Below are positions 3,879-59,473 of a stretch of DNA of 64,000 bases, piece by piece. The translations under genes and the position numbers were made by a program. The first letter of the stretch is position 1, and each line of letters opens with the position of its first letter. The notes under the pieces were generated by a model that was not told the DNA's origin, searched no databases, and worked only from the letters and a program-made list of their open reading frames with translations. Location: positions 6,032 to 70,031 of the forward strand of contig JAJVHY010000016.1 in the NCBI GenBank assembly GCA_022072455.1, written 5' to 3'. The stretch is from Verrucomicrobiia bacterium (lineage in GTDB: Bacteria > Verrucomicrobiota > Verrucomicrobiia > Palsa-1439).

Positions 3879-4892
3879 TTAAACCTTGATATCAATGATG
3901 CGGTAGATGATGTAACCGCCAATGCACTGCCAAATAAACGCTCCCAGCAACCACAGGACACCAAGCGGAAGTTCCACACGCGGTAGAATTTCCAATGTCG
4001 GCGGGCCAAACATCGGGGCAAAATAGTCGGGGGTGTTAAACAGGAAGATCAGAAACAAGGCGACCGGCAAGAGGCCGACGACCAAGCCGGACAAGCGCCC
4101 CTGCGCGGTCAGTACACGAATGTCGCCATGGATGCGGATGCGTTCGCGGATCGTTTCGGCCACTTTTTCCATGATTTCCGTCAGATTGCCGCCGACATCT
4201 TTTTGGATAAGGTAGGCGCTGATGACAATATCGAGGTCGGGGCTGTTGACGCGACGGCCCAAGTTAAGCAGGGCTTGGTCAACGGTCGCGCCGAGGTTGA
4301 TTTCGCGGAGGGTGCGATGAAGTTCCTTGGAAATCGGATCGCTCATTTCCTTGGCCACTAATTCCAGGCCCTTGAGGAAGCCGTAACCAGAGCGCAGCGA
4401 GTTCGTCAACAACATCAACGCGTCTGCGAGTTGGGAAACAAACTTGGCACGGCGGCGGCGCTGATGAAACTTTACGGAAATTGCGGGTGTGAAATAACCC
4501 AGCCCCGCAAAGGCCAGTAGACGCAACAAGGAAATGGAGGAATTGTTGGGATCCGGCAGGAGATACATACTGATAATCACGCCCAAGCCGGCCAACACCA
4601 ACCGCAAGAGTACATACTCCACAGCGCGCATGGGAACATCGGCTTGAACCAAGGAGTCTTCGATGCGTTGGAGGTAGCTGCGCCCAAAAAGACTGTTCAA
4701 CGCTTTCTGGAAGCCGCTGCCCTGACGCATTTCAACCTCTGTGGCGAGCGCGGCTTCTTCCTCGATGCCGGCATACGTCTCCAAACGCTCAGCGAGGATC
4801 GCACGGTTGCGGCCAAACATCGTCGAAAGCCCATAGATAAGCAACGCCACCGTTGCCGCACCAGCGATTACGATAAACCAAATCGTATCCAT
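3879..4892 (-). CDS. tadB: Tad pilus inner-membrane platform protein TadB
   Basis: First GspF-like platform protein of the Flp/Tad pilus. An N-terminal transmembrane helix (residues 4-25) is followed by a cytoplasmic segment, two helices near 95-140, and the T2SSF domain at about 150-280 with 'SLRSGYGFLKGLELVAKEM' at the start and 'QKDVGGNLTEIMEKVAETIR' in the middle. The last helices are near 265-335. Its length of 337 is typical. It sits between tadA (3-base gap) and tadC (2-base gap), in the canonical A-B-C order. Confidence 0.92.
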   Translation of the reverse strand: MDTIWFIVIAGAATVALLIYGLSTMFGRNRAILAERLETYAGIEEEAALATEVEMRQGSGFQKALNSLFGRSYLQRIEDSLVQADVPMRAVEYVLLRLVLAGLGVIISMYLLPDPNNSSISLLRLLAFAGLGYFTPAISVKFHQRRRRAKFVSQLADALMLLTNSLRSGYGFLKGLELVAKEMSDPISKELHRTLREINLGATVDQALLNLGRRVNSPDLDIVISAYLIQKDVGGNLTEIMEKVAETIRERIRIHGDIRVLTAQGRLSGLVVGLLPVALFLIFLFNTPDYFAPMFGPPTLEILPRVELPLGVLWLLGAFIWQCIGGYIIYRIIDIKV

Positions 4893-47507: not shown

Positions 47508-49952
47508 ATGCAGTCTTTGGGGAATCCCCGTGGGGGAGATGAAGCCACATCTCTGCCGTCGGGTTTTAAGTACTTGGTTGGCGCCGCCGCTCTCTTCATT
47601 GCCGGTTGCTCGGCATTCTTCTCGGTCAAAGGTCTCGGTTTGCTCTTCATCGGCTCGGCCACGGCCGTCATGATCATGGCCGCCAGCCTCGAAGTCGGCA
47701 AACTCGTGGCCGCCTCGTTCCTCTACCGGTATTGGAACGTCATCAGCCGGTCGCTCCGCACCTACCTCTTCATCGCCGTCATCCTGCTCATCGGCATCAC
47801 CTCGCTGGGCAACTACGGCTACCTCGCCCGCGCCTACGAGAAAACCCACACCCGCGTCACCCAGCTCGAAGACCAGATCGTGATGCTGGAAAAGGAAAAC
47901 GCCGACACGCAACGCCAGATTGACGCCGCGCGTGGTCAACTCAACAAGACCACCGACACCGGCAAAGAAAGCCTCGCCAGTCTCCAGGCCCGCATCGCCA
48001 CCGGCACCGCCTCGCTCGACCAAGCCCTCACGCGCCTCCAGGAAAAACGCACCACCGCCCAAGCCCGCCGCGATGCCGACATCACCGCGCTCACGCAACA
48101 ACTGGCCGGCCGCAACGACGCGTTGACCAAAGCGCTCGCCACCGAAGACGCCCTCATTGCCGGCTTCAACGACCAACTCGCCGTCCTCGACCGCGCGGTG
48201 GACGCCTACACCAAACAAGGCGGCCCCGGCTTCTTCAAAGTGGACAGCATCAAAAAAGGCGAAGACCTCCGTGACCGGCAAGCCAAACAACGCGCCAGCT
48301 TGACCGCCCAAATCGCCGAGCACCGCGAACTCCAGGAAAAACTCCGCCTCGAACTCACCGCCAACGTCGCCGCCGCCGACAAAGAAATCGCCGCCGTCCG
48401 GCAACAATTCGACACCAGCCTCGCCGCCCTCGACCTCGAAGAAAAAGAACTCCGCCAAGCCACCAAGGATTCCCTGGCCGGCGTTGAACAACAAGTCGCC
48501 GCCCTTCAAGCCCTCGGCCAGACCACGACCGTTTCCGGCAGCACTGCCATCGAGGCTCTCTACCAACGCATCCGCGCTCGCAACGACGAAATCCGCCACC
48601 TCAAAGATCAAATCGCCGCCACCGACATCGGCTCCTACCGGTTTGTGGCGCGGGCGTTCGACGCCTCGTCCGACAACGTCGTCAAATGGCTGACGCTCGC
48701 GCTCGTGCTCGTGTTCGATCCGCTGGCCGTCTGCCTCGCCGTCGGCTTCAACGTCGCCTTGATGCGCGACTTCGGCGGTAACCGCCGCTCCCCCCTCAGT
48801 GCGCCGGTCACCGAAACCAACGGCAACGGCTCCCGCCGGCCGCGCATGGCGACCATCGGCTTGAGCATCGTCCTCCTCGCTGCCGGCACGGGTGGCATTG
48901 CCGTCGCCGCGCACTACGGTATCGGCTCCTTTCGGCAAGCCGCCCAAAGCAAACACGCCAACCTCGTTCCCGGTAACAGCTTCGCCGTCGTCACGCTCCG
49001 GCCCGACGCCAAACCGGAAATGTTCGCGAACTACATCGGCGCGTTACCGGGCCAGTTGTTCAGCGAATTGCTCAAGAGCGGCTTTGACCAGCACGCCGAC
49101 GTCTACGCCTTTGCCAAATTCCCGGAAAAGAAAACTGACCAGCCCGTCATGCTGGCCGGCCTCGTCGCGCGGGTCACTGACCCGGTCGCCGCCGAAGCCG
49201 CGCTCGCCCGCATGGCCGACCAAATCAGCGCCGCCCTCCGCCCCGGCAACGCCCCCGCCCCGGCCAAAGGCCGCGCGATGATCCGCTTCGGACGCGGCCG
49301 GTATCTCGATTCCGAAGGTGGGTTCTTCACGTTTGGTTTGGTGGATCATTCCGCCGTGCTCCTCGTCGAACTCGAAGGCGATGCCGCCGCGCCCATTGTG
49401 GAAAACGAAATCCAAGCGTGTCTCACCACGCGCATCGACACCACGAGTGATACCGCCGCCAAACTCCCGGCCCGCGCACTGGCTCGCGAAGGTGTGGCCG
49501 GCGTTTGGCTTGATGCCGCGCGGTTCTTCGCCGGTCTGCCCAAGAATGCCGCCGCCGAAGTCCGCTATCAACAACTCCAACGCTTTGTGGATTTTGATCT
49601 CGTCCTGCAACTCAAGCCGGCCGGCGCCGATCACCTCGCCATTACCGCCGACTACGCGTACAAAGCCGACCGGTTCAAAGACCGGCTTCAACCGACCGCT
49701 CTCCAAACGCTCGCCACACTCGGCACCGGCACCGAAGCCGGCCTCGGCGGCCAACTGCTCGACCGGTGCGCCGACACGCTCGACTACGATTCGCTCATCG
49801 AACGCCTGCGCACGATGCTGGGCAGCGCGACTCCGACCGGCGCGCAAGAAGTACTCGTCGAAAAATCGTTCGCATCCGACCGCGAAGCGCAATTCATCGT
49901 CAGCGCCCGTGCCGCGACCCCGACCGGCGCACCTGTCGCTTCGGTGAAGTGA
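47508..49952 (+). CDS. Large membrane protein with phage-like N-terminus, coiled coil and periplasmic domain
   Basis: An 814-residue protein. Residues 20-110 have four hydrophobic segments ('FFSVKGLGLLFIGSATAVMI', 'ASLEVGKLVAASFLYRYW', 'SLRTYLFIAVILLIGITSLG'), a pattern I know from membrane proteins of T4-like phages and cyanophages. A long coiled coil follows (about 115-345), then two helices (about 375-400 and 430-455). The C-terminal 350 residues look periplasmic ('GNSFAVVTLRPDAKPEM') and resemble DUF3352-type proteins. No function assigned. AAGGAGG precedes the ATG, and TTGACT lies upstream. The next gene overlaps as GTGA. Confidence 0.75.
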   Translation: MQSLGNPRGGDEATSLPSGFKYLVGAAALFIAGCSAFFSVKGLGLLFIGSATAVMIMAASLEVGKLVAASFLYRYWNVISRSLRTYLFIAVILLIGITSLGNYGYLARAYEKTHTRVTQLEDQIVMLEKENADTQRQIDAARGQLNKTTDTGKESLASLQARIATGTASLDQALTRLQEKRTTAQARRDADITALTQQLAGRNDALTKALATEDALIAGFNDQLAVLDRAVDAYTKQGGPGFFKVDSIKKGEDLRDRQAKQRASLTAQIAEHRELQEKLRLELTANVAAADKEIAAVRQQFDTSLAALDLEEKELRQATKDSLAGVEQQVAALQALGQTTTVSGSTAIEALYQRIRARNDEIRHLKDQIAATDIGSYRFVARAFDASSDNVVKWLTLALVLVFDPLAVCLAVGFNVALMRDFGGNRRSPLSAPVTETNGNGSRRPRMATIGLSIVLLAAGTGGIAVAAHYGIGSFRQAAQSKHANLVPGNSFAVVTLRPDAKPEMFANYIGALPGQLFSELLKSGFDQHADVYAFAKFPEKKTDQPVMLAGLVARVTDPVAAEAALARMADQISAALRPGNAPAPAKGRAMIRFGRGRYLDSEGGFFTFGLVDHSAVLLVELEGDAAAPIVENEIQACLTTRIDTTSDTAAKLPARALAREGVAGVWLDAARFFAGLPKNAAAEVRYQQLQRFVDFDLVLQLKPAGADHLAITADYAYKADRFKDRLQPTALQTLATLGTGTEAGLGGQLLDRCADTLDYDSLIERLRTMLGSATPTGAQEVLVEKSFASDREAQFIVSARAATPTGAPVASVK

Positions 49953-50875
49953 ACTGGCGCTGGCCCAGCGTGATTCTGGCTGGCGTGTTGGTCATCGGTT
50001 GCCGCACGCCGAGGAAAAATGTGTCCGTCCAGCTGGTGGATGATTATCCCGCAGGCCGGTCTTCTGGCGTAGCTGGTAGGGGCGGCCCGCCGGGCCGCCC
50101 GTTTGGTCCCAGCGCAACGGACGAGTCGACGGCTCGTCCCAACCAAGCAAATTCCACTCCTGCGCCAACAAAAAATAATAATGTCGGAGCGGCCTCGGCG
50201 CCGGCCAGCCTCTCTACCGGTCGGGGCGACCCGCCGGGTCGCCCGTCTGTCTCCAGCGTGACGGACGAGCCGGCGGCTCTTCCCAACCAAGCCAGTTCCA
50301 CTCCTGCGCCAACAAAAAATAATAATGTCGGAGCGGCCTCGGCGCCGGCCAGCCTCTCTACCGGTCGGGGCGACCCGCCGGGTCGCCCGTCTGTCTCCAG
50401 CGTGACGGACGAGCCAGCGGCTCGTCCCTACCACGCGGACCCCGCGTTTGCACCGCCAAGCCCGCCGGCCGATCAAAGGCCCAAACCAATCATGCTCTCC
50501 GCTCTCGGCGGCCCCTTCAGCGCTACCAACCAAACACCATCTTCACTTTCAGTTCCCGGCATCACCCCGGCCACTCGCGCCGGTTCCCCGTCGATCGCCA
50601 ACATCCGACTTCGCATCCCCGACCAACGCAACGGCGCCGAGTCGCTCCTCCATTTCCGGCCCATCGCATTACCGGAAGCTGATGGCAAGCCGCTGGCCTT
50701 GCCGGAGTTGGCCGCGCAACCGATCTACGTCGAACCGCTCTTCGCCACGGAAGCCGAATGGCGCGACTGGCAACTCGCCCGGCAACGCGCCACCACCAAA
50801 ACCCGACAGGCCGAACGCGACAATCTCACCGATGGCCTCCAACGCTTCCTGCAACAAGGGGCGCGCGTTCCGTAA
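49949..50875 (+). CDS. Predicted lipoprotein containing palindromic-element-derived repeats
   Basis: A 308-residue protein starting at the GTG of a GTGA overlap. The N-terminus is a type II signal ('VILAGVLVIGCRTPR', Cys after VIG), so it should be lipidated. Residues 40-165 are low-complexity Gly/Pro/Arg/Ala and consist of three 24-residue segments translated from 72-bp palindromic DNA units, separated by 24-residue spacers ('STPAPTKNNNVGAASAPAS'). The C-terminal third is a compact domain ('ESLLHFRPIALPEADGKPL', 'EAEWRDWQLARQRATT'). No family recognised. It lies between the coiled-coil membrane protein and the porin, and may link them at the envelope. Confidence 0.7.
   Translation: MNWRWPSVILAGVLVIGCRTPRKNVSVQLVDDYPAGRSSGVAGRGGPPGRPFGPSATDESTARPNQANSTPAPTKNNNVGAASAPASLSTGRGDPPGRPSVSSVTDEPAALPNQASSTPAPTKNNNVGAASAPASLSTGRGDPPGRPSVSSVTDEPAARPYHADPAFAPPSPPADQRPKPIMLSALGGPFSATNQTPSSLSVPGITPATRAGSPSIANIRLRIPDQRNGAESLLHFRPIALPEADGKPLALPELAAQPIYVEPLFATEAEWRDWQLARQRATTKTRQAERDNLTDGLQRFLQQGARVP
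50074..50433 (+). repeat. Three 72-bp palindromic elements at a 144-bp spacing inside a coding frame
   Basis: Elements at 50074-50145, 50218-50289 and 50362-50433 are each exactly 72 bp and are separated by exactly 72 bp. Each has two hairpins: a GC-rich one (GGGCGGCCCG/CGGGCCGCCC in copy 1) and one with GACGAGCC/GGCTCGTC arms. The ends are TGGTAGGGGC (or CGGTCGGGGC) and TCCCAACCA/TCCCTACCA, the same ends as the element at 199-291. Copies 2 and 3 with their spacers are almost identical, so one 144-bp unit was tandemly duplicated. All lengths are multiples of three. Confidence 0.8.
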
Positions 50876-59354: not shown

Positions 59355-59442
59355 CGCAGCCTCCCGTCGTTGTCGGTACCATTGCCGGCATCTGGCAGCG
59401 ATGCAACTATTGATTGCGCGGCGCGCGATTGCGTCCGCGGCG

Positions 59443-59473
59443 GACATGCCGGCGGCTCGTCCCAACCACGCGG
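59443..59473 (+). repeat. Half-copy of the palindromic element
   Basis: CGGCTCGTCCCAACCACGCGG and the bases just before it match the right half of the 72-bp element in the lipoprotein gene (copy 3) with about four differences in 31. The left half is missing. It lies in the intergenic space between rtcB and the mscS gene. Confidence 0.5.

Follow-up and report, generated by a model that had tools for sequence, protein, structure and literature searches.

In-frame copies of a GTAG-type REPIN in a lipoprotein gene and other genes of a Verrucomicrobiia bacterium and its relatives

Three palindromic units predicted to be read through as protein in a lipoprotein gene of a Verrucomicrobiia bacterium are very probably copies of a GTAG-type REPIN that has inserted both within and between genes, with the lipoprotein array itself having grown by recombination. 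A REPIN of this family (hereafter family 1) would be a non-autonomous element made of two REP hairpins, a type mobilized by RAYT transposases. Where it enters an open reading frame, brings a net length that is a multiple of three and is read in the GGT-AGG frame, which has no stop, it would add 21-26 mostly hydrophilic residues, and the insert would survive where the protein tolerates extra residues, as in the linker of MutL.

The stretch of DNA we analyzed (64,000 nucleotides; the window) contains a lipoprotein gene on the + strand (49949-50875; 308 amino acids, lipobox LVIGC), whose GTG start at 49949 overlaps the stop of the upstream gene. Three REPIN units lie within it on the same strand and in one shared open frame, with a start-to-start spacing of 144: unit 1 (50075-50144), in which two inverted GTAG REPs enclose an 18-nt middle, unit 2 (50219-50288) and unit 3 (50363-50432), whose right end, CCCTACC, is intact. 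Every unit carries two 9-bp hairpins and measures 70 bp from GGTAGGG to CCCTACC or CCCAACC, or 72 bp if one flanking base per side is included, in agreement with the initial annotation, which had described three in-frame 72-bp units with two hairpins each. The covariance model of the family (R1) scored the units at 85.2 bits (E = 3e-20), 84.8 bits and 88.0 bits (E = 6e-21), scores that are in part built in, as the model's 13 sequences include the window units. Between the units lie spacer 1 (50146-50218, + strand), a 72-bp host-derived coding segment that is unmatched by R1 and has no hairpin excess (z = 0.37), and spacer 2 (50290-50362, + strand), a copy of spacer 1. Across the 64-kb window, we counted 6 and 8 occurrences of the two hairpin cores (with up to 3 mismatches), compared to 0.24 and 0.13 expected from shuffles.

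Units 2 and 3 are near identical and unit 1 is more diverged, and the informative sites divide unit 2 between its two neighbors. Over positions 4-52, which hold the first 10 informative sites, it matches unit 3; from position 67 on, it matches unit 1 at all shared informative sites, and positions 54 and 55 bring one match to each; its left flank is identical to that of unit 3 and its right flank to that of unit 1. This mosaic structure indicates that the array grew through unequal recombination between REPINs. In the probable order of events, one 72-bp coding segment would have lain between two REPINs, which would then have recombined unequally to give the REPIN-spacer-REPIN-spacer-REPIN array; as the middles of units 1 and 3 are related, one of these two units is possibly an older local copy of the other. 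The tandem duplication of a 144-bp unit that had been proposed for this protein therefore stands as a later 144-bp event, but not as the copying of one simple unit, since unit 2 arose by recombination of units 3 and 1.

Further copies support the proposal that this is a dispersed, palindromic, REP-like mobile element. On the basis of pattern, BLAST and covariance model searches, the host genome (4.82 Mb, 36 contigs) contains approximately 12 full-length family-1 loci plus single REPs. A BLAST search of the whole genome with unit 1 gave 15 matches, about half of them near full length; the genome-wide search for paired ends suggested in the initial annotation returned 10 GGTAGGG..CCCTACC pairs, mostly of family 1, versus 2 in a reversed control; and the half-site pattern occurred 37 times, versus 0 in the reversed control. 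Among 93 relative genomes, R1 found copies in 24, many of these genomes being from the same bacterial family as the host, with tens of matches in several relatives and each locus usually matched on both strands.

The layout of the element is GGTAGGGRCGASCCGSCGGSTCGYCCG, approximately 18 variable bases and an inverted REP ending in CCCTACC. Aligned copies are conserved at their ends, form two 9-bp stems and vary in the middle, and in nearly all of them GGTAGGG adjoins a 9-bp stem with a 3-nt loop. Family 1 thus has GTAG at the foot of a short stem-loop, which defines the GTAG REP superfamily, and it has the inverted REPs, conserved ends, variable middle and repetition in the genome that define a REPIN. 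Its stems also show the compensatory change expected of REPINs: in 5 pairs, 20 cells were changed on both sides (G-C/A-T and C-G/G-C swaps), an outcome seen in 0 of 500 shuffles that ignore the relatedness of the copies, and 98.3% of stem cells were paired, compared to 33-50% for slid structures. Family 1 is not mostly extragenic and high in copy number, as REPINs usually are. Because REPINs commonly show this trait without being strictly defined by it, and because intragenic REP doublets are already known, we classify family 1 as a REPIN by structure. No constant flanking duplication of the kind that marks MITEs was seen at the inspected family-1 loci, where the insert ends are approximate.

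The balance of copies inside and outside genes, a count the initial annotation had called for, was obtained from 44 full-length loci of six same-family genomes that we checked for an open frame. Fifteen of these 44 lie inside genes and are open in frame (the lipoprotein array being counted once) in a sample that comprises the best-scoring loci rather than all of them and is not fully independent, as eight G006 copies sit in one composite repeat and those on contigs C16 and C25 of the host genome (G000) have similar flanks. The genes that carry these copies encode the lipoprotein, MutL, a PD-(D/E)XK AddB-like protein, an NmrA-like protein with a DUF2867 domain, a HEAT-repeat protein, HsdM (N6_Mtase), a TolC-like protein (OEP), MetH, alpha-2-macroglobulin (A2M, two copies), a sulfatase, FeoB, a photolyase-related DPRP protein, a DUF7226 protein and a membrane protein without a Pfam match. 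Codon-score gene calling separated coding from antisense frames poorly in this GC-rich genome, so the in-gene assignments rest on the open frame together with Pfam matches or orthologs; nearly all 15 copies have same-strand Pfam domains or an ortholog, with no frameshift and no stop. Additional family-1 copies fall in N-terminal regions, where the true starts are uncertain.

Relatives that lack the inserts supply a view of the insertion sites. In the photolyase-related DPRP protein, ITVHYRELC-DSTFGAEL of G002 corresponds to ITVHYTELDV-[REPIN]-TTFGEAL of G006, which has 23 extra codons with nothing lost, so that the G002 gene reads as a clean empty site; an AlphaFold model of this protein, built on an alignment of four sequences, reached a pLDDT of only 40. 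A syntenic ortholog of the lipoprotein, located via the upstream gene (L072:3876-4541, 221 amino acids), has the lipobox region in common and is 50% identical over the C-terminal 50 amino acids, and it contains no repeat, as expected of an insertion. A protein search for lipoprotein orthologs in the 93 relatives returned REPIN matches only. No clean empty site was found for FeoB among the relatives, in which the linker is too variable.

In MutL, the REPIN adds 25 residues and lies between the DNA_mis_repair and MutL_C domains, and its peptide falls within a modeled stretch (residues 322-375) with pLDDT < 50 and no secondary structure. No REPIN palindrome was found in the MutL linker of the congener G001. 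This linker nevertheless aligns gap-free to the REPIN, with 39 of 73 residues identical at the syntenic offset (mean over offsets 18.9, sd 4.4), and a codon-shuffle test of the whole linker against G001 gave 1/2000. When only the REPIN was aligned locally to the G001 linker, the match was not significant (720/2000 shuffles), so that significance is confined to the position-fixed comparisons. The simplest reading is that the MutL insert predates the split of the two species and has eroded in G001, with the extra length probably kept since before that split.

Retention of this length is one of two observations that would fit domestication, in which the REPIN peptide serves as a useful flexible or surface-exposed segment kept by selection. 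The other is the reading frame: 13 of the 15 in-gene copies are read as GGT-AGG, yielding the peptide GRxEPxARP...DEPAARPY, 2 are read in the next frame and none in the frame that contains the TAG stop (13:2, binomial p = 0.007), a bias to be taken with caution as target preference is an alternative cause. Against this, palindrome and peptide have both eroded in G001 MutL, as neutral decay would give, the proteins hit are unrelated to one another, and the lipoprotein ortholog does without the insert. We therefore regard domestication as quite unlikely and the inserted peptides as probably neutral; the earlier description of the lipoprotein insert as domesticated lacks support, since no benefit is evident.

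It is less likely still that the REPIN acts mainly as DNA or RNA (as a terminator, an mRNA stabilizer or a gyrase site) and that its coding copies reflect misannotated starts or pseudogenes. Several copies do lie at gene starts or between genes, and Di Nocera et al. (PMC3733652) regarded such 5'-end copies as probably non-coding, but the 15 in-gene copies have long open frames on both sides, as well as the domain and ortholog support described above. Finally, the high GC content, the Gly/Pro/Arg-rich reading and the exact 144-bp period might suggest ordinary proline-rich tandem repeats made by slippage, with the palindromes a by-product of GC-rich codon choice, but this origin has almost no probability left and is refuted by the dispersed end pairs, the half-sites and the covarying stems of a GGTAGGG/CCCTACC palindrome that is also present, on one strand or the other, in intergenic DNA and within unrelated genes.

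Several family-1 loci have unusual surroundings. On contig C2 of G000, neighboring lipoprotein and DUF4139 genes carry a single REP and a full family-1 REPIN (L101:2703-2733 and 4051-4120), which in both genes are located just before the signal-peptide core and after similar upstream sequences. The eight G006 REPINs noted above (L121, L123, L125-L128, L130) belong to one larger composite repeat, CACACCAGACGGTGTGC-[REPIN]-CACAACAGGTTCAAC, and a section of this repeat is similar to a further palindromic repeat, GGACGCGACGGAGCGCGTCC. On contig C13 of G002 (L133:3003-3150), a family-1 REPIN is directly followed by a second palindromic repeat (GGAGGGACGCGCTCCGTCGCGTCC...), which keeps the same N-terminal reading frame of an FAD oxidoreductase open (EGRAPSRPFAQGGHDGAWPS).

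Two other elements in the window had been matched to the ends of the lipoprotein units. The intergenic palindrome at 199-291 does have GGTAGGG and CCCTACC ends, but its stems differ; as the ends are all that it has in common with the units, we place this REP doublet (219-280) in a second GTAG family. The half-copy noted at 59443 is real: one recognizable REP half (59441-59467) forms part of a degenerate REPIN at 59411-59467 (R1 28.5 bits, E = 2e-5).

The host genome has six Y1_Tnp genes, one of which (L032:1396-2106, contig C9) is a clear RAYT (NF047646, E = 5.5e-54). An inverted-repeat search found a perfect GTAGGG REPIN (GTAGGGTGCGCTATTGCGCACC) on each side of it, as in a canonical REPtron. 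A REP-associated transposase of the kind the initial annotation had proposed to look for is thus present, but the REPINs that flank it belong to a different, third family. A strict GGTAGGG search found no family-1 copy around any of the six Y1_Tnp genes, and the sole transposase linkage of family 1 that we saw is a weak family-1-like pair (37 bits) just upstream of a Y1_Tnp gene in the relative G010 (L168). Because no Y1_Tnp gene of this genome is flanked by family 1, we only infer that a RAYT drives its mobility; this absence, along with a copy number that is low for a REPIN, counts against our preferred explanation. The third family has 28 half-sites, most of them identical, and for this reason appears recently active. 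None of its REPINs was clearly internal to a conserved gene, and a few touch gene ends.

Coding associations were also seen around these other REPs and transposases. A third-family REPIN lies in frame in the signal-peptide region of a putative lipoprotein on contig C4 of G000 (L251:1483-2754; MKIN[VGCAIAHH...AHPT]LAVLLLAGCGKKP). On contig C12 of G000, an in-frame fusion (L033:1138-3054, - strand) joins 8-amino-7-oxononanoate synthase (BioF) to a RAYT, with an inverted GTGGGAGC-type repeat pair in the linker (1756-1846) and another pair in frame in the RAYT part (1439-1513). On contig C69 of G003, CinA is fused in frame to a RAYT (L182:1258-3114, - strand), and this RAYT has REPs of the second GTAG family (GGTAGGGCGGGCTGCCCCAGCCCGCC) on either side.

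In-frame insertion of GTAG elements has precedents. GTAG REPs are found in the PVC superphylum, and intragenic doublets coding for 20-30 amino acids, with targets that include uvrA, ligase, recB and photoreactivating enzyme, are most numerous in Opitutus terrae (Di Nocera et al. 2013, PMC3733652). As in that species, also of the phylum Verrucomicrobia, family 1 has a GTAG tag by a short stem and short loop, forms spaced dimers, is read in frame and has DNA-repair targets (mutL, the AddB-like nuclease and the photolyase-related gene), a likeness drawn from traits other than stem sequence. It differs in its low copy number, mosaic lipoprotein array and one dominant frame. The REPINs of Pseudomonas fluorescens SBW25 share with family 1 the inverted doublet, conserved ends, variable middle and compensatory hairpin changes, with a spacing of 71 bp for GI (Bertels and Rainey 2011, PMC3116915). 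SBW25 REPs, however, number in the hundreds and are almost all extragenic (the most abundant 16-mers have 1,067 occurrences, 14 of which overlap genes; PMC3116915), whereas approximately a third of the inspected family-1 loci are in genes. The parallel drawn earlier with Rickettsia palindromic elements holds as an analogy, as in both cases a mobile palindromic repeat is read in frame as part of proteins unrelated to one another. The CGTC superfamily includes RPE-4 and RPE-6, and RPE-1 is a longer element (PMC3733652); family 1, being GTAG-tagged with different stems, is set apart from these elements by description and is not a member of them.

A coding REP-like family is thus not new as a concept, since in-frame GTAG REP doublets were described in 2013 (PMC3733652), and family 1 is a fresh case of this known kind of element in another lineage of the same phylum. 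This case adds a high share of coding copies, a dominant frame, an empty site, a mosaic array and, in the same genome, a sister family outside gene interiors. It is conceivable, though we consider it unlikely, that family 1 has adapted to life within genes, its usual 70-bp size (probably a 72-bp net insert) and stop-free, hydrophilic, disordered peptide having been selected; if so, the REPIN would insert without breaking the protein and act as a mobile linker module, first lengthening protein segments and then amplifying them. The lipoprotein array illustrates how recombination between two inserted REPINs can start a tandem repeat in a protein. More broadly, one bacterial family here yields many natural insertions that keep the frame of conserved proteins (MutL, MetH, FeoB and HsdM among others), and the RAYT-linked third family, with near-identical copies outside gene interiors in the same genome, provides a built-in control. 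Together with relatives that lack the inserts, these insertions make it directly testable whether such an element is a harmless passenger or a source of new protein segments.
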